This document shows positions 2-16,509 of a stretch of DNA of 17,231 nt, piece by piece; position 1 is the stretch's first letter, and each line of letters begins with the position of its first letter. The translations under genes and the position numbers were made by a program. The stretch is from a bacterium. Its GTDB lineage: Bacteria > Vulcanimicrobiota > Vulcanimicrobiia > Vulcanimicrobiales > SCRA01. Under the pieces are notes generated by a model. It saw only the letters and a list, made by a program, of their open reading frames with translations, searched no databases and was not told where the DNA came from. Location of the stretch: positions 1-17,231 of the forward strand of contig SCRI01000059.1 of assembly GCA_004298675.1 (NCBI GenBank), written 5' to 3'.

Positions 2-259
2 CCTGTGAATACGATCGCGCAGGCCTTGGCCGAGCCGCAGACCGTCGCCCGCGACTTGATCGTGTCCGTGGAGCATCCCGTCTTCGGGACGGTACGCAGC
101 GTCGCTTCCCCCGTGCGCGTAGGAGACGAGGTGCCGCCCGCGCACCGCGCTCCCCAGCGCAACGAGCACGCGGATGCCATCCTTCGCGGGCTGCTAGGTT
201 ATGACGACGCGCGCATCGCCGCGCTCACCGCTGAAGGCGCCTTCGGCCCGCCGCTATGA
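2..259 (+). CDS. CaiB/BaiF (class III) CoA-transferase, C-terminal fragment
   Basis: This is the last 85 codons of a gene that begins before the window; the frame is open from base 2 and ends at TGA 257-259. The segment reads like the C-terminal end of class III CoA-transferases: a PQTVARDL motif, a V-F-G-T-V segment, then SPVR followed by a PP.HRAP.R.EHAD region that leads into the last helix. Members of this family move CoA between carboxylic acids through an aspartyl-CoA thioester. The catalytic Asp lies in the missing N-terminal half, so activity cannot be judged. It converges on the acyl-CoA dehydrogenase gene with 19 bases between the stop codons. A second, complete CaiB/BaiF gene lies at 12588-13787, so the locus may carry two such enzymes. 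The family call is fairly safe; the substrate is unknown. Confidence 0.82.
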   Translation, partial: PVNTIAQALAEPQTVARDLIVSVEHPVFGTVRSVASPVRVGDEVPPAHRAPQRNEHADAILRGLLGYDDARIAALTAEGAFGPPL

Positions 260-278: not shown

Positions 279-1472
279 TCAGTACGAACGCGGCATGCCG
301 AGCACGTGCTGTCCGACGAAGGCGAGAATCAAGTTGTTGGAGACCGGCGCCGTGATGTAGAGGCGTGTCTCGCGAAACTTTCGTTCGATGTCGTACTCCT
401 CGGCGAAGCCGTAGCCGCCGTGCGCATCCATGGCGGCATTGGCCGCCTGCCAGGAGGCTTCCGAGCAGAGTAATTTCGCCAGATTGGCCTCGGCACCGCA
501 CTTCTCGCCGGCGTCGAAGAGAGCAGCGGCCTGCAGACGCATCAGGTTGGCGGCCTCGAGCGCCGCGTGCGCTCGTGCGATCGGGAATTGAACGCCTTGG
601 TTCTGACCGATCTGGCGTCCGAAGACGGTGCGCTCGCTCGAGTACGTCGTGGCGCGTTCGATGAAGAAGCGGCCGTCGCCGATGCATTCGGCGGCGATCA
701 GGATGCGTTCGGCGTTCATGCCGTCGAGAATGTAGCGGAAGCCCCGTCCCTCTTCGCCGATCAAGTTCTCCACCGGAACTTCGAGATCGCGGAAGAACAC
801 TTCGTTGGTCTCGTGGTTCATCATGGTACGAATCGGCCGCACTTCGATCTGTCCTGGAGCGGCGGCATTGAGATCGACCAGCATCGTCGAGAGACCGGAG
901 GTCTTGTCCTTCGGGTCGCTGCCCACGGGCGACGTGCGCGCGAGCAGGAGCATCATGTCCGAATGCTGGACCCGCGAGATGAAGACTTTCTGGCCGTTCA
1001 CCACGTAGCGGTCGCCCTTGCGCACCGCCGTCGTTTGGATCTTGGTGGTATCGCTGCCCGCGGTTGGTTCGGTCACTCCGAAAGCCTGCAGGCGCAGCGT
1101 GCCTGCGGCGATTTGCGGAAGGTAGCGCCGTTTCTGCTCCGCGCTGCCGTGGCGGAGCACCGTGCCCATCGTGTACATCTGAGCATGGCAAGCGGCGGCG
1201 TTACCCCCGGCATGGTTGATCTCTTCGAGGATGATGGACGCCTCCAGGATGCCCAGACCCGCGCCGCCGTAGTCCTCGGGAATCAGCGCAGCGAGGTAGC
1301 CCGCCTCCGTCAGCGTTTGAATGAAGCGGTCGGGGTAGCCGCGCTCCGCGTCGAGTTGCCGCCAATACGCCTGAGGGAAGCTCTCGCAGAGCTCGCGCAC
1401 CGCGCTCTGCAGCGCGCGCTGCTCGGGCGTCAAGCGCAGTCCGGTCGTGGTCTGTTGTGGTGTGGTTGTCAT
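279..1472 (-). CDS. Acyl-CoA dehydrogenase family flavoprotein
   Basis: A 397-residue protein of normal length for an acyl-CoA dehydrogenase, an FAD enzyme that makes the alpha,beta double bond in an acyl-CoA and passes electrons to ETF. Visible family marks are the N-terminal helical domain with PEDYGG (65-70), the beta domain with FGVTEPTAGSD (131-141) and VNGQKVFIS (158-166), and the C-terminal domain with RTVFGRQIGQNQGVQF (281-296) and HGGYGFAEEY (351-360). The usual catalytic Glu of the IYEGT motif is absent: the aligned stretch after FRETRLY (366-372) reads ITAPVSNN. A Glu at 255 (NAERILIA) sits where isovaleryl- and long-chain acyl-CoA dehydrogenases carry their base. The ATG has an AGGAA ribosome site 5 bases upstream. 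It is the last gene of the four-gene minus-strand operon, 10 bases after the PrpD-family gene. The substrate is not known. Confidence 0.93.
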   Translation of the reverse strand: MTTTPQQTTTGLRLTPEQRALQSAVRELCESFPQAYWRQLDAERGYPDRFIQTLTEAGYLAALIPEDYGGAGLGILEASIILEEINHAGGNAAACHAQMYTMGTVLRHGSAEQKRRYLPQIAAGTLRLQAFGVTEPTAGSDTTKIQTTAVRKGDRYVVNGQKVFISRVQHSDMMLLLARTSPVGSDPKDKTSGLSTMLVDLNAAAPGQIEVRPIRTMMNHETNEVFFRDLEVPVENLIGEEGRGFRYILDGMNAERILIAAECIGDGRFFIERATTYSSERTVFGRQIGQNQGVQFPIARAHAALEAANLMRLQAAALFDAGEKCGAEANLAKLLCSEASWQAANAAMDAHGGYGFAEEYDIERKFRETRLYITAPVSNNLILAFVGQHVLGMPRSY

Positions 1473-1482
1473 CCGTTCCTAC

Positions 1483-2889
1483 TCAAGCTCCCAACTGTTC
1501 GGTCAACGCTCGGACGTCCGCGGCGCGGTCCAAGCCGCGGACCAGCTGCACGATACGCTCGCGCCGCGCCGGCGCATACGCAACGCCGGCGAGGTCGTCG
1601 AACTTCGCGATGATCTCCCCCCAGGAGAGCGGTTTCTCCGGTTCTCCCTTGGGGGTATCGGAGAGCCGGCGCAGGCTCTTCCCGCGCGCACGCAGCTCGA
1701 CCAGAGCCGCCATCCGCGGATAGAGCTTCTCCACTTCGGGATCCTCCTCCACGCGGATGCGTTGGACGAGCGCCGCGATGCGGGGATCGCCCAGCATCTC
1801 ATAGTCGTCCCAGCCGAAGCGCCGTTTGAGGATCGCGACGGCGGCCAGGAAGTACATGCTGAATTGGCCGTCGACGACCGACGTTGCGGCGCGTTTGTAG
1901 GCCTCCGGATAGGCCACGAGATCCATCCCCGTACGTGGCAGCGCGATCCGCAGGGACTCGACCTCCTCGGGCTTGAGATCCAGCTCGAGCACCATGGCGA
2001 GTAGCTCGTCGAGCGCGGCGTGCGTGAAGCGGCAGGAGGGATACGGCTTGAAGGCCGTCTCTTCGATCGCATGCGGCTTGCCGAGCCGATCGAGATACGC
2101 GTCGGGATCGACGCCGTCGGAGTAGGCATGGTAGAAGCCGCTGCCGCCTTCGAGCGCCTTACTCGAGCCGACGACGCCCGCCTGCGAGAAGCGATACGCG
2201 AGGACGGCGTTGTGCGCCGTGAAGCCGACGTGGAGACGCTTGATCCAAGAGCCGTTCTCGAGGAACTGCAGCGATCCGGCCGCTTGGCTGACGTTGATGC
2301 CGAAAGCGTTCTCGATCTGGTCGGCCGTGCCATCGAGGGCGTTATAGATTGCCGCCGTCGCGCCGAACGTCCCCGCGGTTGCCGTGGGGTGGAATCCACG
2401 GTCGTAGTGCACTTTCGCGCTCGCCGTCTCGCTGATGTGCGCGATGACGTCGTAGCCGGCGATGATCCCGCGCAGCAGGGCGGCGCCGCTTGCGCCGCTC
2501 TCCTCGACCATCGCGAGCGTCGCCGCGACGATCGGTGCCGCGGGGTGGAGCGAGCCCCCGACGTGCGTGTCGTCGTAGTCCAGCGTGTGGAAGTAGGCAC
2601 CGTTCAAGAGCGCTGCGTACTGCGGCGGATAGAGCGCGCCATGCCCGATGCCGGTGCAGGTGCCGCTCGCGCCGAGTTCGCCCACCGCTCGCGCGATCGG
2701 TCCGCTCGACTCCGCATCGAAGCGGGCGCGGACGGCGATCCCGATGCAATCGAGGAGCGCCTGTTTCGCGTGCTCGATGGCGGAAGCGGGGAGCTCTTCG
2801 AAGCGCAAGCCCGCGGCATATTCGGCGACGGCGCGCGTGGCGCCGGTGCGTTTCGCGGCGTTGCCGCCGCGCGTGGTCGTCGAGGTCAT
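1483..2889 (-). CDS. MmgE/PrpD family protein (2-methylcitrate dehydratase / cis-aconitate decarboxylase fold)
   Basis: A 468-residue, full-length member of the MmgE/PrpD family, which includes 2-methylcitrate dehydratase, cis-aconitate decarboxylase and iminodisuccinate epimerase. All act on polycarboxylic acids without a metal cofactor. Family motifs are intact: LDYDDTH (103-109) with a following H115, GFHPTATAG (165-173), SWIKRLHVG (214-222) and FKPYPSCR (280-287). These form the active-site Asp/His/Lys cluster known from cis-aconitate decarboxylase. ATG 2889 is preceded by AAGGAG about 8 bases upstream. The gene starts 4 bases after the MaoC-like gene ends and is followed 10 bases later by the acyl-CoA dehydrogenase gene. 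The neighbours suggest dehydration, epimerisation or decarboxylation of a di- or tricarboxylate in the same pathway. Which reaction it performs cannot be told, because the family's substrate range is wide. Confidence 0.93.
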   Translation of the reverse strand: MTSTTTRGGNAAKRTGATRAVAEYAAGLRFEELPASAIEHAKQALLDCIGIAVRARFDAESSGPIARAVGELGASGTCTGIGHGALYPPQYAALLNGAYFHTLDYDDTHVGGSLHPAAPIVAATLAMVEESGASGAALLRGIIAGYDVIAHISETASAKVHYDRGFHPTATAGTFGATAAIYNALDGTADQIENAFGINVSQAAGSLQFLENGSWIKRLHVGFTAHNAVLAYRFSQAGVVGSSKALEGGSGFYHAYSDGVDPDAYLDRLGKPHAIEETAFKPYPSCRFTHAALDELLAMVLELDLKPEEVESLRIALPRTGMDLVAYPEAYKRAATSVVDGQFSMYFLAAVAILKRRFGWDDYEMLGDPRIAALVQRIRVEEDPEVEKLYPRMAALVELRARGKSLRRLSDTPKGEPEKPLSWGEIIAKFDDLAGVAYAPARRERIVQLVRGLDRAADVRALTEQLGA

Positions 2890-2893
2890 GGCA

Positions 2894-3403
2894 CTACTCC
2901 TTGTTGGACGAAGGAATCGGCGGGCTCGCCCCGAGGCGGTGGGCGCGTTTGTAGACCATGAACGTCCGCTTGTACGAGATCACCAGATCGCCGTCCTGAT
3001 TGAAACCCTCCGACTTCACGCCCACGATACCGACGGCCGGCCGGGACTTCGATTCGCGTTTCTCCAGCACTTCGCTGCGCGCGTAGATCGTGTCGCCGGC
3101 GAACACGGGATGCGGCAGCACGATGTCGGTCCAGGCGAGATTGGCCAGCGCGTGCTCGCTGAGATCGCTCACCGTCAGGCCCGTGACGAGCGCTAGGGTG
3201 AAGCAGCTGTTGACCAGGGCCTTGCCGAAGGTCGACTGCTCCGCGAGATGATTATCGAAGTGCATCGGGTTGGTGTTCAGCGTCAGCAGCGTGAACCAGA
3301 TGTTGTCGGCCTCGGTGATCGTACGGCCCAGGCGGTGGACGTAGATGTCTCCCACCTCGAAGTCCTCGTAACAACGTCCCTGCCAGCCTGGCTTTTCAGC
3401 CAT
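2894..3403 (-). CDS. MaoC-like hotdog-fold hydratase/dehydratase
   Basis: A 169-residue single-hotdog protein of the MaoC dehydratase family, enzymes that add or remove water across the double bond of an enoyl-CoA. The N-terminal YEDFEVGD (12-19) and GRTITEADNIWFT (26-38), followed by TNPMHFD (44-50), are the hydratase region; the conserved active-site His is H48. In (R)-specific enoyl-CoA hydratases an Asp lies five residues before this His, but here that position is N43. HPVFAGDTIYARSEV and KRESKSRP in the C-terminal half are typical of the branch related to mesaconyl-CoA and methylmalyl-CoA type hydratases. The start at ATG 3403 is chosen because AGGAGAG lies 5 bases upstream and the homology begins there; the frame stays open further upstream without similarity. 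It sits between the ThDP-enzyme gene (11-base gap) and the PrpD-family gene (4-base gap). Confidence 0.9.
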   Translation of the reverse strand: MAEKPGWQGRCYEDFEVGDIYVHRLGRTITEADNIWFTLLTLNTNPMHFDNHLAEQSTFGKALVNSCFTLALVTGLTVSDLSEHALANLAWTDIVLPHPVFAGDTIYARSEVLEKRESKSRPAVGIVGVKSEGFNQDGDLVISYKRTFMVYKRAHRLGASPPIPSSNKE

Positions 3404-3414
3404 GGAACTCTCCT

Positions 3415-5088
3415 TTATCCTAGCGGTGCGGCGAGTGCGAGATAGCTGTTGGGCGAGGGCCGCAGCGCGTCCGTCGTGACCTCGACCAAACTGGGTCCGC
3501 CGGCGCACGCTGCCTCCATGGCCGCGGAGAACTCCTCCGCCGTCTGCGCCGAGAAGCCGCGCGCGCCAAGCGACTCCGCGAGCGCGGCGAACGACGGCTG
3601 AGGAAGGTCGACGGCGAAGCGGCGTCCTGGGAAGCGCGCATCTTGATGAAGCGCGATCGATCCCCAGACACCGTTCTTGAAGACCACGACCGTGATCGGC
3701 AGCTTCAAGCGTACCGCCGTCGCCAGTTCCAAGCCCGTCATGAGGAACGCGCCGTCTCCCACCAGCGCCACCGTACGCGTGCCGCGCAGCGCCAGCTGAA
3801 CGCCCTGTGCCGCCGGTACCGCATAACCCATGCTTCCTGAGAGCGGGCCGAAGTATCGCCGTTGCGCGCGGAACGGGAAGTAGCGCACGATCCAATCGTT
3901 GAACGACCCGGCGTCCGAAACGGCGTTGGCGTCGTGCGGCAGCGCGCCGTCCAAGATCTCGAGAATCGATCCGAACGGGACACCGCCGGCCTCTTGTGCC
4001 TCTGCGGCGATAATCTCTCGCCCCTCCAGGGCCAAGGCATGCCTGCTGGAACGGACCCATTCCATTCGCGCCTCGCGCTCCGCCGCGCGATCGTCGTGTG
4101 ACTGGGCTAGCCGCGCGCTGATCTGCGCGACGGCGGCGACGGGGTCAGCGTAGTAGAACTCCGCTGCCAGATACTCGTCCCAGCCGATGTCCGGTGCCGG
4201 CTGGACGATCGCGATCCTCGCCGTAAGCGGAAGGTAGCCTTGCGTCACGCGGTCACCCAGACGGTGGCCGAGCACCAGCAACGCGTCGGCTTCGTGAAGG
4301 AGCTGCTTGACCGCACGCGGTCCCCGGATCGTGCTGCAGCCGAGCCAGGAGGGATGGTCCGGCGGCAGCACGTCGGGGAACGCATGGCCGCCCAGCACGC
4401 CGAAACCGGAGCGCTGGGCCAGGGCGTCGAGGGCCTCCGCCGCAGCTCCGCCGGCGAGATCGGCCCCGCAGATGATTGCGCCGCGCCGCGCGCCCTGCAT
4501 CATCGCGACGATCGCGTCGAGCGCCGCGTGCGAGAGGACGCCGTACCTCGCCGGCGTTTGCGGGAGCCGCGTTTGCGCGGCTTCATCCACCTCGCCGTAG
4601 AAATGGTCCGCTGGTATGCTGACCACGACCGGACCGGCCGGCTCCGTGGCCGCCTTGCGCAGCGCCGCTAGGAGTGCTGCGGGTGCCTGATCCGGGCGCG
4701 TTACTTCGAAGGCGTCTTTAGCAACGGAACGGAAGACGTCGGTGTATTCCATCTCCTGAAGCGACCGCCGCCCGCGCACCCCGCTCTCGAGTTGGCCCAC
4801 CAGGACGACGAGCGGAATGTTGGCTTGCGAGGCCTCGTGCACGCCGATCAACGCGTTGGAGGCGCCGGGGCCGCGGGTCACGGCGATGACGCCTGGGCGC
4901 CCGGACGCGCGTGCATAGCCGGCGGCTAGGAATGCGGCCCCCGCTTCATGACAGGTCGAGAGGAACGGCAGCGACTCGTTGCGCATGCCGTCGAGCAACG
5001 GCAGATAGCTTTCTCCCGAGACCCCGGCCACCCACGGAATGCCGTATTCGTGCAAGAGCGCCGCCATGGCGTGTCCGGCCAACATCAT
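3415..5088 (-). CDS. Thiamine-diphosphate-dependent enzyme, acetolactate-synthase/benzoylformate-decarboxylase type
   Basis: A 557-residue three-domain ThDP enzyme. The N-terminal PYR domain has the activating Glu in STCHEAGAAFLAAGYARA (E48) and the TRGPGASNALIGVHEA loop. The middle domain follows from about residue 190. The C-terminal PP domain carries the ThDP/Mg motif GDG (444-446) ending at N472 in VVVFKNGVWG. Family members decarboxylate 2-oxo acids or condense them (acetolactate synthase, sulfoacetaldehyde acetyltransferase, oxalyl-CoA or benzoylformate decarboxylase). No small regulatory subunit lies nearby, and the catabolic setting argues against amino-acid synthesis. Two ATG codons stand in tandem (5086-5088 and 5083-5085); an in-frame stop at 5095-5097 rules out a longer protein. 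No Shine-Dalgarno sequence precedes them. It is the first gene of the minus-strand operon. A 2-oxo acid decarboxylase is my guess; the substrate is open. Confidence 0.9.
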   Translation of the reverse strand: MMLAGHAMAALLHEYGIPWVAGVSGESYLPLLDGMRNESLPFLSTCHEAGAAFLAAGYARASGRPGVIAVTRGPGASNALIGVHEASQANIPLVVLVGQLESGVRGRRSLQEMEYTDVFRSVAKDAFEVTRPDQAPAALLAALRKAATEPAGPVVVSIPADHFYGEVDEAAQTRLPQTPARYGVLSHAALDAIVAMMQGARRGAIICGADLAGGAAAEALDALAQRSGFGVLGGHAFPDVLPPDHPSWLGCSTIRGPRAVKQLLHEADALLVLGHRLGDRVTQGYLPLTARIAIVQPAPDIGWDEYLAAEFYYADPVAAVAQISARLAQSHDDRAAEREARMEWVRSSRHALALEGREIIAAEAQEAGGVPFGSILEILDGALPHDANAVSDAGSFNDWIVRYFPFRAQRRYFGPLSGSMGYAVPAAQGVQLALRGTRTVALVGDGAFLMTGLELATAVRLKLPITVVVFKNGVWGSIALHQDARFPGRRFAVDLPQPSFAALAESLGARGFSAQTAEEFSAAMEAACAGGPSLVEVTTDALRPSPNSYLALAAPLG

Positions 5089-5098
5089 TGTACGTCAG

Positions 5099-5126
5099 AG
5101 TGTACCGCGTCCGCCGGGGATGTTCA
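5099..5126 (-). promoter_or_regulatory. Candidate sigma70-like promoter for the ThDP-enzyme operon
   Basis: On the minus strand TGAACA (5126-5121) and TACACT (5104-5099) are spaced by 16 bases, four of six matches each to the -35 and -10 consensus. The -10 box ends only 10 bases before ATG 5088, which would give an almost leaderless message and fits the lack of a ribosome site. The call rests on pattern only. Confidence 0.3.
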
Positions 5127-5192
5127 TTGGCTGCATCTGCCAAGCGCCCATGTACCCGCTCGGTCGTTTCGGCCGATGGCGAGCGCCGCACG

Positions 5193-5209
5193 GCATGCTA
5201 GGATCATGC
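5193..5209. promoter_or_regulatory. Possible operator: 5-7-5 inverted repeat in the divergent spacer
   Basis: GCATG (5193-5197) and CATGC (5205-5209) form a perfect inverted repeat with a 7-base spacer. It lies in the 165-bp region between the divergent ThDP-enzyme and tctC genes, about 45 bases before the tctC start. The position suits a binding site for a dimeric regulator, but five-base arms occur by chance fairly often. Confidence 0.25.
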
Positions 5210-5253
5210 GAACGCGTCATACTGCTGACTCCGGAGAGTGGAAAGGTGCCCAT

Positions 5254-6246
5254 ATGAGACGGCTACATTTCGGTATCCTCGGAAGTGCGTTCGCAGTCAT
5301 CGCCCTCTTACTGGGAATGCAAGGCAGCGCATCAGCCGCAGACTTCCCGAATCATCCGGTCACGCTGATCGTCCAATACCCGGCGGGCGGCGGGATCGAC
5401 ATCACCTCGCGTCTCCTGGCGAAGTACGCGGAGAAGTATCTCGGCCAGAAGATCATCGTCGTCAACGTCGTCGGCGGCGGCGGCGTGGTTGGCAATACTC
5501 GCGTCGCCAGCTCGAAGCCGGACGGCTACACCCTCGGACTCGAGATTCCCGCGATCATCACCGACAAGAGCCTGTTGCCGGACGTGTCGTACACGGCGGA
5601 GTCCTTCGATCCAATCGTTCTTGTGAATACGGACTACGGCGTCTTGAGCGCCAAGAGCGGCAGCGACTTCGAGCGGCCGTTCAAAGCTACCGAAGCGCAG
5701 GCCAAGTCCCATCCCCATACCGTGACGATCGGCGAGAGTGGACTCTGGACCAGCAACGATTGGTCGCTCCTCGCACTCAAGCAGGTCTATAACATTCCCT
5801 TCCAGCGCGTCGAGTTCCAAGGCGGGGCCCCGGCGCTGCGCGCGGTCATGGCCGGGACGGTCAATCTGGCATTCAACTATCCCGCTGAGATCATCGATTA
5901 CGTCAAGGCGGGTACCGTGAAGCCCATCGCCGTCGCGGCGCCCAAGCGCCTGACATCATTCCCCGACACACCCACGTTCAAAGAGCTCGGTCTCCCGAGT
6001 GCGCAGTTCGCGCTCTGGCGGATTCTCGTGGCCCCGCACGGGATCTCGGCGGACGTCCAGAAAGTCTTGGAAACGGCGTTCGTCAAAGCCCTCAACGATC
6101 CCGAGTTGAAAGCGGACTACGCCAAGGCCGGCCTCCCCTGGGGGCCCGGTTCAGCGCAGCAGGCACTCGCCCTCATCCGGTCTGACGAGGGTACCTACAA
6201 GACCTTCATCGAGCACTACAAGCTCCACCCGGGCTCCACGCCATAA
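5254..6246 (+). CDS. tctC: Tripartite tricarboxylate transporter substrate-binding protein (Bug/TctC family)
   Basis: A 330-residue secreted solute receptor. The N-terminus is a signal peptide: MRRLHF, a hydrophobic core to about residue 21, then a likely cut after GSASA (residue 28). The mature protein starts with FPNHPVTLIVQYPAGGGID, the hallmark of Bug receptors, whose PAGG..D loop binds a carboxylate of the ligand. GGGGVVGNTRVASSKPDGYTLG (75-97) and SFPDTPTFKELG are further family marks. It hands small carboxylates such as citrate, dicarboxylates or aromatic acids to the TctAB permease. ATG 5254 is chosen because it gives the signal peptide and has GAAAGG 7 bases upstream; the frame is open much further upstream without similarity. 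tctB follows after 3 bases. The tandem order C-B-A, right beside catabolic genes, suggests it supplies their substrate, which is not identified. Confidence 0.96.
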   Translation: MRRLHFGILGSAFAVIALLLGMQGSASAADFPNHPVTLIVQYPAGGGIDITSRLLAKYAEKYLGQKIIVVNVVGGGGVVGNTRVASSKPDGYTLGLEIPAIITDKSLLPDVSYTAESFDPIVLVNTDYGVLSAKSGSDFERPFKATEAQAKSHPHTVTIGESGLWTSNDWSLLALKQVYNIPFQRVEFQGGAPALRAVMAGTVNLAFNYPAEIIDYVKAGTVKPIAVAAPKRLTSFPDTPTFKELGLPSAQFALWRILVAPHGISADVQKVLETAFVKALNDPELKADYAKAGLPWGPGSAQQALALIRSDEGTYKTFIEHYKLHPGSTP

Positions 6247-6249
6247 TCG

Positions 6250-6663
6250 ATGGCAAGGATCAAGTATCCGCAGGTACTCGTCGGCGCCGTACTCCTGGTC
6301 ACCGGCCTCTATTTTTGGTGGCTGAGCACCGGCCTGCAGTTGAGCGCGGCCGAATACCCGCGGATCGTCCTTGCGCTCATGATCGGCGTCGCCGCCATCA
6401 TGGTCGGGGCGGGAATCCGTTACGACCGTTCGGTGGCCAGCTATGACTTCGCCGGCGTGGCCGTGCCGATCGTCCTGACGCTGATCTACATCGCATTGTT
6501 CGGACGGCTGGACTTCCGGGTGCTCACGGCGCTCTACGTCCTGGCCATGATCTGGAAGCATCCCGCAGGCTGGTCACGGTTCTCCAAAGTCGTGCTCGCC
6601 GCGGCAACGAGCATGGCGCTGTATACCATCTTCGTTCGCGCATTCAACTTACCGATTCCCTAA
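6250..6663 (+). CDS. tctB: Tripartite tricarboxylate transporter small membrane subunit TctB
   Basis: A 137-residue integral membrane protein with four hydrophobic segments (about residues 8-26, 33-52, 70-90 and 108-130), the layout of TctB. Charged turns lie between segments 2 and 3 (RYDRSV) and after segment 3 (KHPAGWSRF). TctB is the poorly conserved small subunit that partners the large permease TctA. Sequence similarity alone is weak for this family; length, topology and its place between tctC and tctA decide the call. It begins 3 bases after the tctC stop and ends 27 bases before the tctA start. Confidence 0.9.
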   Translation: MARIKYPQVLVGAVLLVTGLYFWWLSTGLQLSAAEYPRIVLALMIGVAAIMVGAGIRYDRSVASYDFAGVAVPIVLTLIYIALFGRLDFRVLTALYVLAMIWKHPAGWSRFSKVVLAAATSMALYTIFVRAFNLPIP

Positions 6664-6690
6664 GCCGGACGTTTCGGGAGAGACGGCGCC

Positions 6691-8238: not shown

Positions 8239-10198
8239 TGAAGACTTGAAGATGACCTCTGCCTTGTTCGATGATGTCGCGGTCGGCGCGCTGCACCTCA
8301 AGAACCGCCTCGTGCACGTCGCGACCGTTGGAAACTACGGCCTTGACGGCTTGCCGACCGAAGAGCTGATCGCCTATTACGCCCGCAGGGCCAAGGGCGG
8401 CGTTGGACTTATCATCACGGAAGGCGTCTCGGTCCATCCGAGCTCGCAACCGAATCCAACGATCGTGCACGCCTATGATCCGGCGGCCTGGCCGGGCCTA
8501 GTAAGGCTCGCCTCCGCCGTTCACGCTCACGGCGTGCCGATCTGCTTACAGTTGTGGCACGTAGGGCGCCAGCAGCTCTGGGGTCCGGTGGGCTCGCCAT
8601 GGGGCGTCTCCGCCGCGCCGGACGCGCTCAGCGGTGTGGTGCCGCACGTCATGAGCATCGCGCAGATCGCGGAGCTCGAGAACGCATTCGTCGACTGCGC
8701 GGTGGTAGCGAAGGAGGCAGGGTTCGACGGAGTCGAGATTCACGGCGCGCACGGGTATCTCGTGACGCAGTTTCTCTCGCCGTGGAGCAATACGCGCGCG
8801 GACGCCTACGGCGGCAGCCCGGAAAACCGGATGCGTTTCTTGCGCAATATCTTGCAAGGGATCCGCGGCGCGTGCGGCGCGGAGTTCGTCCTGGATCTCA
8901 AGCTGAGCGGGAGCGAGTTCGTAGCAGGGGGCCTGACGCCGGACGACACGCGGGGCATCATCGCCGCGCTCGAAGCGGATGGACTGATCGACGTCGTCGG
9001 CATCAGTCAGGGAAATTTCAGTCTGAGCTTAGAGCGGCACGTTCCGGACATGCATTTTCCGCCCGCGCCGTTCGCCGGCGTCATCGCGCAGACGCGCCCG
9101 CCGCAGACGAAGACGCCCATCATCGCTATTGGACGCGTCATGGACCGCCGGACCGCGGAGGAGCTGGTGGCAAACGGCACCGCCGATCTCATCGGCATGG
9201 CGCGGGCTCTGATCAGCGATCCCGACTTGCCGTCCCTCTGGCGCGTGAACGACGACGCACACGTCCGTGACTGCATTGCGTGCAACGTCTGTTGGGGCGC
9301 CATCCACGCGGGAAAGCGCATGCTCTGCATCCACAACCCGGAGGTGGGCGCCGAGCAGTCGTGGGAGCCGGCGCAGCGCGCCGCCGCGCCGCGCACGCTG
9401 CACGTGGTCGGCGCAGGCCCCGCTGGCATGGAAGCCGCGTGGGTGGCGGCCAGCCGGGGACACCGGGTACAGCTTTGGGAGGCCGCCGGTGAGCTCGGCG
9501 GACAGCTTCGCTACCTTGCGGCGCTGCCGGGTTTGGGAGAGTATGGCGGCATCCTTGCGTATCAGCAGGCACGCATGGGCGAGTACGGCGTCGAAGTTCA
9601 CTGCGGTCATGCCGTCACCCGTGACGAGTTGAAAGCGTGGGCCGGGCAGGACGACGTCGTTGTCGTCCTCGCCACGGGGTCGCTCCCGCAGCCCTATCCG
9701 CGAGTCTTGGCAGCGCTGGAGCCGTTGGCACCGGACGATGACCGCTGGTGGACGCTTGGGGCCGCTGAGGGCGACGCGATCGTCTTCGACGAGGATGGCG
9801 GCTACGGCGCCTACGGTCCCGCAGAGCGCTTGCTGGCGTTGGGCTACCGCGTCTCGATTGTAACCTCGAGGACGGACATCGGAGCAAATCTCGACTATCT
9901 CTCGCGCATCGGGCTGCAGCGCCGCTTGCGAGAGGCCGGAGTACCCGTGTATACCGGCATGCAGCCGGAGGCCGTGACGTCCGAGCATCTGCGCATCAAG
10001 GACGTGTATTCCGGCAAGCCGATGATGCTCGCTAAACCCGCGCTCACGGTCTGGGCAGGGCCGCGCGTTGCAAACGACGCCTTGGCGGAGACGTTCGGCC
10101 GTAACGGCGGCTTCCTGAACTTGATCGGCGACGCCGTGTCGCCGCGAAAGATCGTGTCTGCCATCCATGAAGGGCAGCTGCTGGGGCGGACGCTCTAG
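8228..10198 (+). CDS. Old-yellow-enzyme family NADH:flavin oxidoreductase with 4Fe-4S and FAD domains (2,4-dienoyl-CoA reductase/TMADH type)
   Basis: A 656-residue multi-cofactor reductase like 2,4-dienoyl-CoA reductase FadH and trimethylamine dehydrogenase. The N-terminal FMN TIM barrel holds HGAHGYL (from 172) and QFLSPWSNTRADAYGGSPENR. A 4Fe-4S site follows with C349, C352, C355 and C367, spaced CxxCxxC-x11-C. The C-terminal FAD/NAD(P)H domain begins at VVGAGPAG (393-400). Such enzymes reduce activated C=C bonds or demethylate amines. GTG 8228 is preferred: GGAGAG lies 7 bases upstream and it overlaps tctA by 11 bases. ATG 8252 (648 residues) is the alternative and agrees better with where homology begins. 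It looks cotranscribed with tctCBA, so its substrate may be the imported compound or a derivative. Its stop codon overlaps that of the opposing hydroxyacid dehydrogenase gene (CTAG, 10195-10198). Confidence 0.93.
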   Translation: MKDDEDLKMTSALFDDVAVGALHLKNRLVHVATVGNYGLDGLPTEELIAYYARRAKGGVGLIITEGVSVHPSSQPNPTIVHAYDPAAWPGLVRLASAVHAHGVPICLQLWHVGRQQLWGPVGSPWGVSAAPDALSGVVPHVMSIAQIAELENAFVDCAVVAKEAGFDGVEIHGAHGYLVTQFLSPWSNTRADAYGGSPENRMRFLRNILQGIRGACGAEFVLDLKLSGSEFVAGGLTPDDTRGIIAALEADGLIDVVGISQGNFSLSLERHVPDMHFPPAPFAGVIAQTRPPQTKTPIIAIGRVMDRRTAEELVANGTADLIGMARALISDPDLPSLWRVNDDAHVRDCIACNVCWGAIHAGKRMLCIHNPEVGAEQSWEPAQRAAAPRTLHVVGAGPAGMEAAWVAASRGHRVQLWEAAGELGGQLRYLAALPGLGEYGGILAYQQARMGEYGVEVHCGHAVTRDELKAWAGQDDVVVVLATGSLPQPYPRVLAALEPLAPDDDRWWTLGAAEGDAIVFDEDGGYGAYGPAERLLALGYRVSIVTSRTDIGANLDYLSRIGLQRRLREAGVPVYTGMQPEAVTSEHLRIKDVYSGKPMMLAKPALTVWAGPRVANDALAETFGRNGGFLNLIGDAVSPRKIVSAIHEGQLLGRTL

Positions 10199-11133
10199 CG
10201 GCGATCCCTGACGGCTAGTGCTCCCTCGATGGCGTCGATGCCGCTGCGGATGAAATGCTCCCACGTCTCATCGGTCATCCAGGCGATGTGCGGCGTCAGT
10301 ACGCCGGGAGCGCTCCGGATGGGGTCGTCGGGGGCTGGAGGTTCCTGGTCGAAGACGTCGAGTCCTACGAGGAGGTCGCCGCGCGCCAGGCGCTGGAGCA
10401 GAGCGGTACGATCCACCAGCCTGGCACGCGACGTATTGATCAGGAGTGTATGAGGCCGAAGCGCATCGATGACCGTGGCATCCACGATACCGATGGTCTG
10501 CTCGACGACGCGAAGGTGGATGGAGAAGACGTCTGCCCGGCGTGCGAGATCGATCAGATCCGCGGCGCGCCGCACCCCGGCAGCCTCCGCGCGTGCGCCG
10601 GTCAACGTAGGGCCCCACGCGACGACGTCCATCCCGAACGCTTGGCCCAGGCGCGCAACGCGCGTGCCGATCGTTCCCAACCCCAGCACGGCGAGCGTCT
10701 TGTGGTGCAGATCCCTGATGATCGGGCGCGTAAACCCGCCGCTACGGATGTCGGCGTCGAGCTGCGGCATGCGGTGAAACGCGGCCAGCATCAGCGCAAA
10801 GGTATGCTCCGCTACGGACTGCGCGGTTGCACCGGGGCTCGTGAGGATCTGAATGCCCAGGTCCTGCGCAGCCGCCGTGTCCAGATGCGGCAAGCCGGTG
10901 CCGGTATTATAGATGATGCGCAGGTTCGGAAGGGAGCGCAACGCAGCGGCGTCGAGCGCCGTGCGCTCGCGATTCAAGATCAGGATGTCCGTGTCGTGGA
11001 TGCGACCGGTGAGTTCCGGCGCCGCAAGGTGGCGATCGAAGATCTCCACGGCAGCATGTTGCCGGAGGCGATCCGTCGCGGGCGAATCCGCCCAGCGATG
11101 CTCCCAATCGTCGAGTATTGCGATACGATGCAC
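10195..11133 (-). CDS. D-isomer-specific 2-hydroxyacid dehydrogenase
   Basis: A 312-residue NAD(P)-dependent dehydrogenase that interconverts a 2-oxo acid and a D-2-hydroxy acid. The nucleotide-binding fold carries GLGTIG (151-156). The catalytic trio is present: R236 in NTSRARLVD, E264 in DVFDQEPP and H282 in LTPHIAW. After the second strand of the Rossmann fold the protein reads VVAWGPTLTGARA (170-182), without the acidic residue that favours NAD, so cofactor preference is open. The start is GTG 11133, with GGAGAA about 9 bases upstream. It is a single gene, convergent with the OYE reductase and divergent from the aldolase operon by 136 bases. Glycerate, lactate or phosphoglycerate dehydrogenase activity cannot be told apart here. 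Confidence 0.93.
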   Translation of the reverse strand: MHRIAILDDWEHRWADSPATDRLRQHAAVEIFDRHLAAPELTGRIHDTDILILNRERTALDAAALRSLPNLRIIYNTGTGLPHLDTAAAQDLGIQILTSPGATAQSVAEHTFALMLAAFHRMPQLDADIRSGGFTRPIIRDLHHKTLAVLGLGTIGTRVARLGQAFGMDVVAWGPTLTGARAEAAGVRRAADLIDLARRADVFSIHLRVVEQTIGIVDATVIDALRPHTLLINTSRARLVDRTALLQRLARGDLLVGLDVFDQEPPAPDDPIRSAPGVLTPHIAWMTDETWEHFIRSGIDAIEGALAVRDRR

Positions 11134-11187
11134 GTAGCACCGTTCTCCGTGGCAATCCCGCGGCCCCTGGTCGCCTCCGCCAATCGT

Positions 11188-11245
11188 GTACGGGTTTCTC
11201 TGTCTGGTACGGCCGATGAACGGCGGCCGGCCCTTCGATTAGAAT
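11188..11245 (+). promoter_or_regulatory. Candidate promoter and direct repeats upstream of the aldolase operon
   Basis: TAGAAT (11240-11245) matches the -10 consensus in five of six bases. TGAACG (11217-11222) lies 17 bases before it as a weak -35. Two copies of GTACGG (11188-11193 and 11207-11212) sit just upstream with starts 19 bases apart, close to two helical turns, a usual layout for an activator site. The weak -35 box fits a promoter that needs an activator. This is by pattern only. Confidence 0.35.
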
Positions 11246-11269
11246 ACTACCGACCGGAAAGGACATCGT

Positions 11270-11875
11270 GTGACTGAAGCTTCGAAGAGTATCTTCGCGT
11301 TCTCGTCGGCCACGCTCCACGAGGCCTTCGCCAGACGTGGGGCGATGCCGAGCGCTATCAAACCGGTCGCGCACGGGATGCGCATTCGCGGCCGCGCATT
11401 CACCGTTGCATCACCGCCGCAAGACAATCTCATGCTGCACAAGGCGATCTACGCCGCGGAGCCAGGCGACGTCCTCGTCGTCGGCGTCAGCGGCTTCCAC
11501 GAAGCCGGCTACTGGGGTGAAGTGATGAGCGTTGCCGCAGTGGCAAGACGCCTCGCGGGCCTGGTCATCGACGGCTGCATCCGGGATTCCAACGAAATCG
11601 CCGCGCTGGGCTTTCCCGTGTTCGCGCGTGGGACGTGCATCAGTGGCACCGCGAAGCACGGCGGAGGCGCGCTGCAGGTTCCGATCGTCGTCGGCGACGT
11701 CGTCGTAAGCCCCGGAGACCTCATCGCCGGTGACGACGATGGCATCGTGGTCGTCCCGCCGGGCGAGGCGGGGGCCCTAGCCGTTGCCGCCGCGGAGCGC
11801 ATGGAGCACGAGGCGGAGATCATGCGCCGCCTACGGTCCGGCCAAACCACGCTCGCGCTCTTCAATTTGTCCTGA
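11270..11875 (+). CDS. RraA-type class II aldolase (4-carboxy-4-hydroxy-2-oxoadipate/HMG aldolase family)
   Basis: A 201-residue protein of the RraA/HMG-aldolase family. Catalytic members cleave 4-carboxy-4-hydroxy-2-oxoadipate to pyruvate and oxaloacetate, or 4-hydroxy-4-methyl-2-oxoglutarate to two pyruvates; others inhibit RNase E. The aldolase site looks intact: DGCIRD (101-106) supplies the R-D pair that binds substrate and divalent metal, and WGEVMSVAA (82-90) supplies the acidic loop. The length and these residues favour an aldolase over the RNase regulator. GTG 11270 follows GGAAAGGA at 11256-11263. Its stop overlaps the start of the GalB-like gene by one base (TGATG), and those two enzymes act in sequence in the gallate and protocatechuate 4,5-cleavage pathways. 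This strongly suggests a GalC/LigK-like role, though the substrate here may differ. Confidence 0.88.
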   Translation: MTEASKSIFAFSSATLHEAFARRGAMPSAIKPVAHGMRIRGRAFTVASPPQDNLMLHKAIYAAEPGDVLVVGVSGFHEAGYWGEVMSVAAVARRLAGLVIDGCIRDSNEIAALGFPVFARGTCISGTAKHGGGALQVPIVVGDVVVSPGDLIAGDDDGIVVVPPGEAGALAVAAAERMEHEAEIMRRLRSGQTTLALFNLS

Positions 11876-12588
11876 TGAGTTCGCGGCTGATCGTTGTCTC
11901 CGCGCACGCAGGTGACTGGCTGTGGCGCGCGGGCGGCGCCATCGGTAAGGTCGTACAAGGCGGAGGTGAGGCCGTCGTCGTCGCGCTGAGCTACGGCGAG
12001 CGCGGCGAGTCTGGCGAGCTGTGGAAGCAGCCGGCGCAAACCGTCGACAACGTCAAACAGGTTCGCGAGCAAGAAGTGCGTGCGGCGGCCGCTATCCTCG
12101 GCGCTACCATGCAGTTCTTCGATCTCGGTGACTATCCGCTCGTCGTGGACCGCCCCGCGCTAGACCGCCTTACCGAGCTCATGCGTGACTTCGAACCGGA
12201 CGCCGTCATCACGCACACGGAGCTGGACCCGGCCAATCCAGACCACCCGGAGGCTCATCGTGCGGCGGTCCTGGCGCGTAAGCTCGCGATCGGCGCAGGG
12301 GTGCCGGCGGCCTTCAAGACCATCGCGCCGCCGGCGCTCTACGTTTTCGAACCGCATCATACCGAGCTATGCAGCTTCAGTCCCGATACGTACTTGGATA
12401 TCACGGACGTCTTTCCGAGCAAGGCGGAGGCGATGGCTCAAATGGCGGCGCAGCCATACATGATCGAACAGTACACGCAGCGTGCCCAGAACCGTGCGTC
12501 GTTCGGGCGCAGGTTCGGCAAGAATCAAACGATGCGCTACGCCGAAGCGTTCCAACGCCTTATTCCGGAGGTTGTCGATACACTCTGA
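11875..12588 (+). CDS. galB: PIG-L/LmbE-fold hydratase, 4-oxalomesaconate hydratase (GalB) type
   Basis: A 237-residue PIG-L-fold zinc protein. Most relatives are deacetylases with AHPDD, but here the motif is SAHAGDWLWRAGG (H11, D14). The following text, LSYGERGESGELWKQP (38-53), LGDYPL (84-89), HTELDPANPDHPEAH (114-128) and FEPHHTELCSF, matches my memory of GalB of Pseudomonas putida, which hydrates 4-oxalomesaconate to 4-carboxy-4-hydroxy-2-oxoadipate. H11, D14 and a His in the HPEAH segment are the likely zinc ligands. It overlaps the aldolase stop and the CoA-transferase start by one base each, so it is translationally coupled on both sides. Pairing with the aldolase supports the hydratase call. 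No gallate or protocatechuate dioxygenase lies in the window, so the true substrate could be another tricarboxylic acid. Confidence 0.85.
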   Translation: MSSRLIVVSAHAGDWLWRAGGAIGKVVQGGGEAVVVALSYGERGESGELWKQPAQTVDNVKQVREQEVRAAAAILGATMQFFDLGDYPLVVDRPALDRLTELMRDFEPDAVITHTELDPANPDHPEAHRAAVLARKLAIGAGVPAAFKTIAPPALYVFEPHHTELCSFSPDTYLDITDVFPSKAEAMAQMAAQPYMIEQYTQRAQNRASFGRRFGKNQTMRYAEAFQRLIPEVVDTL

Positions 12589-13787
12589 TGCAGCCGCTAG
12601 CAGGGATCACCGTCGTCGATTTGAGTATCAGCGTCTCCGGCCCCATGGCCGCCGCGATGCTCGCGGACGCCGGCGCGCGCGTCATCAAGGTCGAGCGTGT
12701 GACCGGAGAGCTGACCAGCGAATGGGACTCCGTGGTCCACGGCATGAGTTCGTCGTACGTCTGGAACGCGCGCAATAAGGAGAGCGTGGCTCTCGATCTG
12801 AAGGACGCACGCGCTCTGGATGCCGTCCACCGGCTGGTCGAGCGTGCCGACGTGGTCATCGAGAACTTCTCTCCGGGCACGGCCGAGCGCATCGGCGTCG
12901 GCTATGCGGAGCTATCGGCAAAGAACCCGCGGCTGATCTATTGCCACATCTCCGGGTACGGTCAAGAGGGACCGTACCGCGGCGAGCGGGCATTCGATTT
13001 CCTGGTGCAGGGCGAATGTGGGCTGATTGCGATGAACGGTACGCCCGATGAGGCCTGCAAGGTGCCGCTCTCCATCGCCGATATCTCCGCGGCCATGTAC
13101 GCCGCACAAGCGATTACGTTGGCGCTGATCGCGCGCGAGCGAACCGGCGTGGGCGACGAGATCGACATCGCGATGCAGCACTCGCTGCTCTCGTGGATGG
13201 GTTATCATGCCTATTTCGCGTGGTTCCGCGATCAGAACCCGCAGCGTATCGGGTCCAGACATCACCTGCTGGTACCGTACGGGCCGTTCTTGTGCTCCGA
13301 CGGCAGCGCCATGAACGTGGCGGTGCTCAGCCAGGCCGCATGGCGTACGTTCTGCGAACGGGCGATCCAACAGCCGGAGCTTGCCGCCGATCCGCGTTTT
13401 GCCACCAACGAGTTGCGCGTGCGCAACCGGGAGGCGTTGGATGCCATCGTCAGCGCAGCGTTTCGGCTGCATCCGCGAGCGTACTGGGACGAGTTGCTGC
13501 ACGACTTGGGCTTGCCGTGCGGCCAAGTCTTGGAGTTGAAGGAGGCCCTGAAGCACCCGCAAGTCGTCGCGCGCGGCGTCGTGCAGCAGGCGCCGTCGCG
13601 GCGCGGCGTCGTACCGGCGATTTCGTCGCCCGTGCGCGCTACGCGCATGGAGATGCGTTATGACGGCGTGCCGGTGACGGGCGAGCACACGCGCGGTGTG
13701 CTGAGCGAGATCGGGTTCAGCACGGCCGAGATCGATACCATGCTACAAGCCGGTGTATGCCGCGCTGCGGACACGGGGGCCGAATAG
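12588..13787 (+). CDS. CaiB/BaiF (class III) CoA-transferase
   Basis: A 399-residue, full-length class III CoA-transferase. The N-terminal part has VVDLSISVSGPMAAAMLADAGARVIKVE, then NKESVALDLK (63-72) and ENFSPGTAERIGVGY (92-106). The catalytic Asp is D165 in PLSIADISAAMYA, matching Asp169 of formyl-CoA transferase. HISGYGQEGPY and the C-terminal SPVRATRM region complete the family picture. The enzyme forms an aspartyl-CoA thioester and moves CoA from a donor such as succinyl-CoA to an acid. ATG 12588 is chosen because it overlaps the galB stop (TGATG) and begins the homology; a GGAGG lies further upstream at 12567-12571, so reinitiation is likely. The operon link to the hydratase and aldolase is unusual, since that route does not use CoA. 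The donor and acceptor are unknown. Confidence 0.94.
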   Translation: MQPLAGITVVDLSISVSGPMAAAMLADAGARVIKVERVTGELTSEWDSVVHGMSSSYVWNARNKESVALDLKDARALDAVHRLVERADVVIENFSPGTAERIGVGYAELSAKNPRLIYCHISGYGQEGPYRGERAFDFLVQGECGLIAMNGTPDEACKVPLSIADISAAMYAAQAITLALIARERTGVGDEIDIAMQHSLLSWMGYHAYFAWFRDQNPQRIGSRHHLLVPYGPFLCSDGSAMNVAVLSQAAWRTFCERAIQQPELAADPRFATNELRVRNREALDAIVSAAFRLHPRAYWDELLHDLGLPCGQVLELKEALKHPQVVARGVVQQAPSRRGVVPAISSPVRATRMEMRYDGVPVTGEHTRGVLSEIGFSTAEIDTMLQAGVCRAADTGAE

Positions 13788-13821
13788 GAGGGCCCTTTTC
13801 TAGCGGCGCGAATGGTCCGCC

Positions 13822-15444
13822 ATGTCCACCCACGTTTGCGTTTCAGAGTTGGTGGAATCGTTGCCGGGTGCGATCGAACTGCGGCCTTCGCGGTCGATGA
13901 CGCCGGAATTGACCCACCTGTGGACACCGGGAGACCCCGATGACGTGGCCCGCGGGGCCGCCGTCGTCGTGACCGAGGACGACGCCCGGTCGATGGTACC
14001 GTGGGCCGTCGCCCACGGGGCCGCCGCCGTGATCGTCTGTGCAGCCCCGGCGGAAGTGGAACGTGAGGCTCTAGACGAGTCGATCCCGGTGATCGTATGG
14101 CCGCCGGCGGCCGGTCGCGACCCGCGAGATCTCAAGCTTGCGGTCCAGCGAGCCATCATCGAGGCCCAGAGCAAACAGATCGAGCGCATCCACACGATTC
14201 ACGACCGGTTGACACAGGTGGCGCTCACGGGTAGCGGGCTCGAAGATCTCGCCCGTGCGCTAGGGGAGATCGTTGCGAACCCCGTGATCATCAAGAGTCG
14301 CGAGCATCGCAATCTCTCGTTCTTTGGCGATGGCGGCATGCTGGACTCGGTTCGCCGCCGTGCCTTCGCCCACGGTGGTACGACGCCCGACGTCGTCAGG
14401 GAACTCGAACGCCGTGGTGTCTTCGCGCGCCTGCGGCGGGATCGCCGTCCTTTGCACCTACATGCCATCGAGGAGCTGGAGATGGCGGCGCGTGTCATGG
14501 CGCCGATCATGATGGGCGAGGCCTATTACGGCTATATCTCGATCGCTGAAGTGCGGCATGCGCTCGCGCCCGTCGATCTGATGGCTACGGAGCAAGCGGC
14601 GACGGTCGCCGCGCTGATCCTTGGCCGCGAGCAGGCGGTCCGCGCGCGCGAGCGTGGTTTGCGCTCTTCCTACGTCTACGAGATGCTCTTCGGTCACGAG
14701 TCCCTGGAGCTCATGGAACGGCGAGCGGAGTTTCTCGGCTACCCAGCTAGGCAACGTTACGCGGTGATGGTGTTGCGGCCGGCGGATGCCGGCCCCGATT
14801 CCGTGCGTCCGCTGATGGAGCATGTTGCCGCTGCGGCAGACGCACATATTCGCCAACTTCAGTCCCGGCGCGGCGGGCTCTACGCCATCGCGCTGGAAGA
14901 CGTGGCGGTGGCGATTTATCCCGCGCAGGGAGAGGCCTCGCGCGAGGAGTGGCTCAACCGCGCGCGGCAGTTGCTTGATATTGTCTCCCCAGTCAGCGAC
15001 GACTGCGGCTTAACGGTCGGTGTGGGCTGCTGGCAGCCTGAAGCACGCGCCGCGCGGCACTCTTTCACCCAAGCGCGCTTGGCGGCAATGGTAGGACAAC
15101 GGCTACGTGGTCCTGGTTCCGTCATGCACTACCAAGATTTGGGCCTCTACCGCTTACTCGTGGAGGCCGTTGACCCGAAAGAACTTGAATCCTTCCGCGC
15201 GGAGCAAATTGGAGCGCTCGCCGGAGATGAGGAATTGCTGCGTACGTTACGAGTCTATCTCGACGCGCGTTCCAATAAAGCGTTAGCCGCAAAACGCCTC
15301 GCCGTACATCTCAACACGCTCAAATATCGCTTGCAGCGTATCGCCGATCTTACGGGGCGGGATTTGAACGATCCGCAAACGTTGCTCGATCTGCACGTGG
15401 CGATCGAGATCGGGGATCTCGCCTCGCCCTCCGCAGTTCGATAG
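13822..15444 (+). CDS. PucR/CdaR-type transcriptional regulator
   Basis: A 540-residue regulator of the PucR type. Residues 1 to about 115 look like the PucR N-terminal sensor domain (VSELVESLPG, AAVVVTEDDARS, AAAVIV). A helical linker (IEAQSKQIERIHTIHDRLTQ) leads into a GAF-like region, then a degenerate GGDEF-like region around residues 300-440. The C-terminal winged helix (472-530) has the family signature with SNKALAAKRL, HLNTLKYRLQRI and LTGRDLNDPQTLLDLHVA. Such proteins usually activate catabolic operons in response to the substrate or a pathway intermediate. An in-frame stop at 13801-13803 fixes the first possible start as ATG 13822; no clear ribosome site lies close to it, the nearest AGGAGGG being 28 bases upstream (13787-13793). 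It follows the CoA-transferase by 34 bases on the same strand, so it probably belongs to that operon and controls the cluster. Confidence 0.92.
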   Translation: MSTHVCVSELVESLPGAIELRPSRSMTPELTHLWTPGDPDDVARGAAVVVTEDDARSMVPWAVAHGAAAVIVCAAPAEVEREALDESIPVIVWPPAAGRDPRDLKLAVQRAIIEAQSKQIERIHTIHDRLTQVALTGSGLEDLARALGEIVANPVIIKSREHRNLSFFGDGGMLDSVRRRAFAHGGTTPDVVRELERRGVFARLRRDRRPLHLHAIEELEMAARVMAPIMMGEAYYGYISIAEVRHALAPVDLMATEQAATVAALILGREQAVRARERGLRSSYVYEMLFGHESLELMERRAEFLGYPARQRYAVMVLRPADAGPDSVRPLMEHVAAAADAHIRQLQSRRGGLYAIALEDVAVAIYPAQGEASREEWLNRARQLLDIVSPVSDDCGLTVGVGCWQPEARAARHSFTQARLAAMVGQRLRGPGSVMHYQDLGLYRLLVEAVDPKELESFRAEQIGALAGDEELLRTLRVYLDARSNKALAAKRLAVHLNTLKYRLQRIADLTGRDLNDPQTLLDLHVAIEIGDLASPSAVR

Positions 15445-15775: not shown

Positions 15776-16189
15776 ATGCGGGCGCTCCTCGATACCCACG
15801 TCTTTCTTGCCTTGCTCGCTCAACCGGAGCGCGTGCCCAAGCCCCTTCGTGCCGCCGTGGATACAGCCGATGTGCGCCTCCTCTCGGTTGCGTCGATTTG
15901 GGAGATGGCGATCAAAGCAACGCTAGGAAAGCTGACGCTCCCGCTCCCCGTGGGCGAGTATGTCGCTTCGAGAGTTGCACAGCTTCAGTGCGCCATTCTT
16001 CCAATATCGGAGTACCACGCAGCCGCGGTGCAATCGTTGCCGTACCATCATCGGGACCCCTTTGACCGCCTCATCGTCGCCCAAGCGATCCTAGAAGATG
16101 CCGTGCTCTTGACACTCGACCGGAGCATCTCGCGCTACGATGTCGCGACGTTGCCGCTGCAGGTGAAGAAGAAGCGTCCCGCGCGGTAG
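15776..16189 (+). CDS. vapC: PIN-domain toxin, VapC family
   Basis: A 137-residue PIN-domain ribonuclease, the toxin of a type II module. The acidic metal-binding residues are all visible: D6 in LLDTHVF, E43 in SVASIWEMAIK, D94 and D97 in HHRDPFDRLIVAQA, and D115 in LLTLDRSI. LGKLTLPLP (49-57) and LPISEYHA (75-82) place it in the branch usually paired with Phd/YefM-type antitoxins. Such toxins cut tRNA or rRNA and stop growth unless bound by the antitoxin. ATG 15776 lies 3 bases after the antitoxin stop, with no ribosome site of its own, so its translation probably depends on the upstream gene. An intact toxin next to a broken antitoxin is odd: either the antitoxin is still made or this toxin is not expressed. 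Confidence 0.93.
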   Translation: MRALLDTHVFLALLAQPERVPKPLRAAVDTADVRLLSVASIWEMAIKATLGKLTLPLPVGEYVASRVAQLQCAILPISEYHAAAVQSLPYHHRDPFDRLIVAQAILEDAVLLTLDRSISRYDVATLPLQVKKKRPAR

Positions 16190-16267: not shown

Positions 16268-16509
16268 TTGCCGTCAATAAGGGTCGGCGCGTGGCGCCTC
16301 GTCGTGATACCGGGTGATCATGAACCATGCCACGTGCATGCGCGGTACGGAGTCGGTGAGGCTAGTGAAGTCGTAGCCGAAATACCGAGGGCGCAGTGAA
16401 GATCAGGCGCGCAAGTAGGGCCCTGTCACGTGCCCAAGTGCGGTGGGCGCTTGAGCTCGTCGCTGAGTATCGTGCGAAACTCATAGGGATCTGGGAGAAA
16501 TACTGCTGA
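16268..16509 (+). pseudogene. DUF4160 family gene, apparent frameshift
   Basis: Two frames together give one DUF4160-like protein of about 80 residues. The first part, from TTG 16268, reads MPSIRVGAWRLVVIPGDHEP, then CHVHARYGVGEASEVVAEIPRAQ, and stops at TGA 16397-16399. The second part, one base back in phase from about 16396, reads VKIRRASRALSRAQVRWALE, then LVAEYRAKLIGIWEKYC, to TGA 16507-16509. The DHEP.HVHARYG motif and the LSRAQ...WALELV...LI.IWEKY end are the family pattern, so one indel near 16390-16398 would join them. AGG at 16256-16258 suits the TTG start. The DUF2442 gene starts at ATG 16509, sharing one base with the stop, as expected for the usual DUF4160-DUF2442 pair. No function is established that I can name with confidence. 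It could be decay or a sequencing error. Confidence 0.72.

Follow-up and report, generated by a model that had tools for sequence, protein, structure and literature searches.

The window, a stretch of 17,231 bp, makes up the entire contig C45 of the draft genome (3.03 Mb, 98.5% complete) of a little-known groundwater bacterium. It contains three operons. Operon (a), at positions 279–5088 on the reverse strand, encodes a ThDP enzyme, a MaoC hydratase, an MmgE/PrpD family protein and an acyl-CoA dehydrogenase, separated by gaps of 4–11 bp. Operon (b) (5254–10198, forward strand) encodes TctC, TctB, TctA and an ene-reductase, and operon (c) (11270–15444, forward strand) encodes an RraA aldolase, a GalB homologue, a CaiB CoA-transferase and a PucR-type regulator. 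The positions and strands of the genes named in the first-pass annotation were all confirmed. Two features had been absent from it, namely a D-2-hydroxyacid dehydrogenase gene located between operons (b) and (c) and divergent from rraA (10195–11133, reverse strand), and caiB0, another family III CoA-transferase gene, of which the window holds the 3′ end (2–259, forward strand). The left end of the contig cuts caiB0; the N-terminal part of this gene is found at the end of contig C11, which probably adjoins C45. The genes are intact, and all 13 of those tested are under purifying selection, with dN/dS values of 0.02–0.17 relative to the sister species. The predicted divergent promoter region that separates operon (a) from operon (b) (5089–5253) features long stretches conserved in three species. 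A motif common to both divergent intergenic regions was sought, and the best ungapped match was no better than those in shuffled sequences. The genes for a PIN-domain protein (15776–16189) and a DUF2442 protein (16509–16934) downstream of pucR are unrelated to the catabolic block.

The acyl-CoA dehydrogenase gene acad (279–1472, reverse strand) encodes a homologue of (RS)-methylsuccinyl-C4-CoA dehydrogenase (Mcd), 62% identical to P. aeruginosa PA0879 and 63–68% identical to members of the Shinella, Deinococcus and Paraburkholderia clusters. The adjoining MmgE/PrpD family protein (1483–2889, reverse strand) is a probable methylsuccinate isomerase (Msi). It is 33% identical to PA0881 and 44% identical to its Shinella counterpart, and the columns common to cluster members comprise the motifs DD, H.A, HY, K and FK...C..H. 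In a published survey, every methylsuccinate isomerase gene adjoined the gene for methylsuccinyl-CoA dehydrogenase (PMC12290011), and prpD and acad are likewise adjacent in the window. The MaoC hydratase (2894–3403, reverse strand) is a single-domain protein resembling RipB/Ich, the itaconyl-/mesaconyl-CoA hydratase. Its best NCBIfam model is RipB_Ich, with 193.5 bits against a cut-off of 340; the single-domain type also occurs in the Deinococcus, Rhodococcus and Rubrobacter clusters. By sequence, operon (a) thus contains counterparts of the genes for methylsuccinate isomerase and methylsuccinyl-CoA dehydrogenase and a probable counterpart of that for itaconyl/mesaconyl-CoA hydratase. The remaining product, a ThDP enzyme of the acetolactate-synthase/decarboxylase superfamily (3415–5088, reverse strand), is confined within the phylum to the window's genus at E ≤ 1e-80, and a search for plasmid relatives of this protein and of the ene-reductase returned none or weak ones.

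An (S)-citramalyl-CoA lyase gene was not found in the window. In the sister species G002, acad is followed by an HpcH/CitE-type lyase gene (contig C29, locus positions 8224–9027), the product of which is 42% identical to P. aeruginosa Ccl (PA0883). In the window, the stop codons of caiB0 and acad are separated by only 20 bp (259–279), and the flanks match G002 on both sides. As read from this alignment, the window genome has cleanly lost the lyase gene that would separate acad from caiB0. Lyase paralogues (38–41% identity, and 41–43% in the case of the C27 homologue) are encoded on contigs C27 and C70 of the same genome and may replace the deleted gene. The Ccl-like lyase gene of C27 lies in an island with genes for an IclR regulator, an amidohydrolase, CaiB, a cyclase, MmgE/PrpD, an MFS transporter, an ALDH, a molybdenum hydroxylase and a second RraA aldolase; the ALDH is 59% identical to that of a Deinococcus C5 cluster.

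In operon (b), the genes for a TctC-type periplasmic binding protein (5254–6246), a small permease TctB (6250–6663) and a large permease TctA (6691–8238) stand together, and all three products score above the Pfam cut-offs. Solved relatives of TctC provided generic Tct/Bug matches only as a guide to its ligand. The fourth gene (8252–10198) encodes an OYE/FadH-type ene-reductase with FMN, [4Fe-4S] and FAD (Cys341-344-347-359). The presence of a Tct importer beside CoA-ester genes had first been regarded as a novelty; a TctC-family gene was, however, already noted next to the itaconate/methylsuccinate cluster of C. necator (PMC12290011).

Operon (c) begins with the genes for an RraA/HMG-CHA aldolase-type class II pyruvate aldolase (11270–11875), a GalB homologue with the PIG-L hydratase fold (11875–12588) and a family III CoA-transferase of the CaiB type (12588–13787), followed by the gene for the PucR-type transcriptional regulator (13822–15444). 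The junctions rraA-galB and galB-caiB are 1-nt overlaps (TGATG), a strong indication of translational coupling of the three genes. The early description of GalB and RraA as joined to a CoA-transferase in one coupled operon is thus upheld, while nothing is fused.

GalB is homologous over its full length to the characterised P. putida GalB (4-oxalomesaconate/4-carboxy-2-hydroxymuconate hydratase; PDB 5cgz, E 2.8e-55), with which it shares the PIG-L fold and the metal-ligand motifs (H11, D14, E45, H124). Both proteins lack the deacetylase base, their AHxxD motif having no second Asp. Gly13 of the window protein occupies what we take to be the catalytic Asp position of the PIG-L family AHxDD motif, and a deacetylase function is disfavoured. 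Unlike P. putida GalB, the window protein carries the replacements F15W (beside Asp14) and Q162H (beside His161), is coupled to a CoA-transferase and has no GalD or dioxygenase partner. The residues F and Q occupy these positions in 84 of 84 other GalBs; Y199 is changed as well, so that the active-site neighbourhood differs from that of other GalBs. RraA barely reaches the cut-off of the NCBIfam model PRK09262 for CHA aldolase (179.3 bits; cut-off 179). It retains the motif E84-X20-R105-D106 together with H57, T127, K129 and R177, in agreement with the [D/E]-X20-R-D, His57, Thr127, Lys129 and Arg177 of HMG/CHA aldolase (LigK/GalC/ProA; PDB 3noj), from which it differs by Glu in place of Asp102, a change shared by 32 of 69 relatives, and by its other partners. 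These features of GalB and RraA fit a shifted substrate, without proving it.

The phylogenetic position of the CaiB protein was studied using two maximum-likelihood trees, in which the placement of one short partial sequence is unsure. The CaiB of operon (c), which keeps the catalytic-type Asp165, groups with itaconate/methylsuccinate CoA-transferase (Ict) proteins (support 100/99), and all other full-length CaiB proteins of the genome, as well as caiB0, fall outside the Ict clade in both trees. The caiB0 product was therefore rejected as the CoA-transferase of the cluster. The operon (c) protein is also the best match of its own genome to PA0882 (286 bits vs 211 for the next; 40% identity), and these results mark it as the one Ict-clade protein detected in the genome. 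The CaiB proteins nearest to it in the tree come from a relative within the same order (54%) and from a haloarchaeon, the latter being encoded in an acad-MaoC-CaiB operon with an MmgE gene nearby. As the only full-length CaiB within the Ict clade is encoded in operon (c), operons (a) and (c) are linked by likely function, beyond mere proximity. The location of an Ict-clade gene in the RraA-GalB operon suggests that the two operons probably constitute one split module, placed beside the TctCBA importer.

The whole block is syntenic, with the same gene order, in the sister species G002, and two contigs of a third genome, G003, carry matching pieces of it, which bears out the earlier view that these genes belong together. 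This genus-level synteny rests wholly on draft metagenome bins. Among 148 relatives, one further genome encodes GalB; the RraA next to it is not that of the window, and CaiB is lacking there. The acad gene is present in 20 of 146 relatives, and in several of them it adjoins a prpD gene whose product is 53% identical to that of the window. The conserved co-occurrence proposed in the first-pass annotation was thus found within the window's genus only; elsewhere the modules are separate and the C5 module stands alone.

The surroundings of GalB were compared in the 80 best GalB loci of GTDB genomes, 65 of which have at least 3 kb of flank on both sides. Among these listed matches, RraA lies within 3 kb of GalB in 55 of 65 loci, GalD or a DUF6282 gene in 48 and a C23O- or LigB-type dioxygenase in 33. 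Outside the window's genus, GalB-RraA is accompanied by tautomerase and dioxygenase genes, and CaiB adjoins GalB solely within the genus, both among the matches listed. In loci of Thermus, Thermomicrobium, Rubrobacter and Actinomycetes that lack GalD, a DUF6282 gene is regularly the one immediately preceding GalB, which suggests that DUF6282 supplies the missing tautomerase activity or a similar step. In a Spirochaetes MAG, DUF6282-GalB-RraA-TctC-TctB-TctA form one run with a dedicated Tct importer (locus positions 8045–13443), and in C. metallidurans tctC adjoins galB-rraA. A literature search for the combination of RraA, PIG-L protein, CoA-transferase and Tct returned no match.

Ring-cleavage partners were sought in the window genome and the sister genomes. 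Neither the PrpF/GalD tautomerase nor a C23O-type dioxygenase was found in these three genomes; the control for the C23O query came from outside this search, as the same protein matched many of the 80 GalB loci. No LigAB was found in the window genome, and its sole LigB-family match is YgiD-like, as judged by sequence. The own and sister genomes contain one distant (35%) DUF6282 paralogue, located in an acyl-CoA cluster. The contig of G002, 111 kb in length, has P450, FAH and HgmA genes on one flank of the block and an MFS transporter gene on the other. For the GalB-RraA pair, no partner in ring cleavage was detected, and the initial expectation that no gallate/protocatechuate dioxygenase would explain it stands for C23O-type enzymes in three genomes and for LigAB in the window's own.

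The CoA-ester half of the locus is a known pathway, characterised in Pseudomonas and Cupriavidus. The cluster proteins to which the window dehydrogenase, MmgE and CaiB correspond have been assigned as methylsuccinyl-CoA dehydrogenase, methylsuccinate isomerase and itaconate CoA-transferase, respectively (PMC12290011). The proposal that this part represents a new route was not sustained, since operon (a) and the CaiB of operon (c) correspond to the itaconate/methylsuccinate pathway (PMC12290011, PMC9875883). The locus resembles the clusters PA0878–PA0883 of P. aeruginosa and E6A55_22580–22600 of C. necator in its Mcd and Msi homologues, its probable Ich homologue and its Ict-clade CoA-transferase. 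It further resembles the Pseudomonas/Cupriavidus arrangement (ich-mcd-mmgE-ict-ccl) in having Ccl in the sister species and an adjacent Tct gene, as in C. necator. Unlike these clusters, the window set is split over two operons, with Ict in the RraA-GalB operon; it has a single-domain MaoC and an added ThDP enzyme, Ccl is deleted, and the host lineage is apparently outside Pseudomonadota, in a phylum that is small and separate among the genomes compared. A full itaconate cluster (MaoC-acad-VOC-MmgE-CaiB-CCL-TRAP) was found on the megaplasmid NZ_CP131792.1 of a clinical P. aeruginosa, with a gene order that agrees with PA0878–PA0886 (PMC9875883), and clusters of this kind are also present in Shinella, Rhodococcus, Deinococcus, Thermus and Rubrobacter. 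Those on Deinococcus plasmids, MmgE-ThDP(a,b)-PxpA-acad-CaiB-(CCL)-MaoC-ALDH, likewise join a gene for a ThDP enzyme to the C5 module, but differ in a two-subunit ThDP enzyme, the presence of 5-oxoprolinase and ALDH and the lack of GalB/RraA. The 5-oxoprolinase of these plasmids is PxpA, and one of them also encodes a urea amidolyase family protein, hinting at a route from substituted glutamate or pyroglutamate to methylsuccinate.

On balance, we favour, with some reserve, the interpretation of the locus as a catabolic cluster for itaconate/methylsuccinate (branched C5-dicarboxylates) split over two operons. TctCBA would import the acid, Ict would form its CoA ester, and Mcd and Ich would convert this ester to citramalyl-CoA, which a lyase, in the window genome the C27 paralogue, would split into acetyl-CoA and pyruvate. 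The absence of the lyase gene from the window contig, the low identity of MmgE to PA0881 (33%), the MaoC score below the Ich cut-off and the restriction of synteny to draft metagenome bins of one genus speak against this interpretation.

The strongest competing explanation, in itself unlikely, is that the locus holds two independent modules with a neighbourhood and an importer in common. GalB-RraA would act on an imported C7 tricarboxylate, converting an oxalomesaconate/CHA-type acid to pyruvate and oxaloacetate without CoA, while the C5 module would separately degrade itaconate/methylsuccinate. All metal and catalytic motifs checked are kept in GalB and RraA, and the Spirochaete and C. metallidurans arrangements indicate that Tct importers do pair with GalB-RraA. 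However, the 1-nt overlap of caiB is with galB and not with operon (a), two elsewhere-invariant GalB positions are changed, and no tautomerase is encoded.

For the split C5-dicarboxylate cluster itself, the contribution of GalB-RraA is the less certain part. The pair might handle a methyl analogue of the gallate-derived C7 tricarboxylate, that is, a methyl-branched 2-oxo acid instead of gallate products; we regard this part as doubtful. 4-Methylene-2-oxoglutarate is the normal substrate of GalB minus one carboxylate, and it might be converted to HMG by GalB and then to two molecules of pyruvate by RraA. RraA-family aldolases cleave HMG to two pyruvates, besides CHA (PMC5065237), and HMG, itself formed from pyruvate, can be converted chemically to methylsuccinate (PMC11951559). 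The ene-reductase, the 2-hydroxyacid dehydrogenase and the ThDP enzyme could then connect the C6 pool to methylsuccinate. Stated as an undescribed branch for methyl-branched C6 2-oxo acids (4-methylene-/4-methyl-2-oxoglutarate, parapyruvate/HMG), the scheme is similarly tentative: GalB of altered specificity and the RraA aldolase would turn one part into pyruvate, and the ene-reductase and ThDP enzyme would route the remainder into the methylsuccinate pathway, with one TctCBA importer and control by PucR. The basis of the HMG scheme is, however, chemistry and two changed GalB residues, and the locus has no aldehyde dehydrogenase for the decarboxylation product.

It is rather improbable that GalB is a free-acid hydratase converting mesaconate, whose structure is contained in that of its usual substrate, to citramalate for the neighbouring CoA-transferase, with RraA in an accessory role (oxaloacetate decarboxylase/HMG aldolase). 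Class I fumarase does likewise in other bacteria, and in Thermus thermophilus AA2-2 the FumA/FumB genes stand beside acad, CaiB and MaoC in a cluster of the same kind. Ict accepts (S)-citramalate (PMC9875883), and the active-site neighbours of GalB are changed; the coupling of RraA to GalB is, however, left unexplained, and RraA keeps its aldolase motif. Ordinary end enzymes of gallate/protocatechuate 4,5-cleavage, with the dioxygenase and tautomerase unrecognised or in an assembly gap, are very unlikely: GalB-RraA is the classic pair and a dioxygenase is close by in about half of the listed loci, but the genome is nearly complete, no C23O-type dioxygenase or PrpF/GalD was detected in three genomes, the window's own has just the YgiD-like LigB protein and the G002 flanks encode other functions.

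The locus can be described as a known C5-dicarboxylate pathway in split form, to which GalB-RraA has been added for reasons that are not explained; it is conserved within a single genus. The placement of the CoA-transferase beside GalB-RraA suggests an undescribed side entry into the itaconate/methylsuccinate pathway and indicates that an Ict-type CoA-transferase can be housed with GalB-RraA. Methylsuccinate isomerases are 96% from Pseudomonadota (PMC12290011), and the locus extends the itaconate/methylsuccinate module to a poorly known lineage. It also offers a testable case for the role of RraA-family aldolases where a genome lacks aromatic ring-cleavage pathways, which has been asked about previously (PMC5065237). 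Until recently, the environmental source of methylsuccinate was described as unclear (PMC12290011), and the HMG link, if true, would constitute one more such source.
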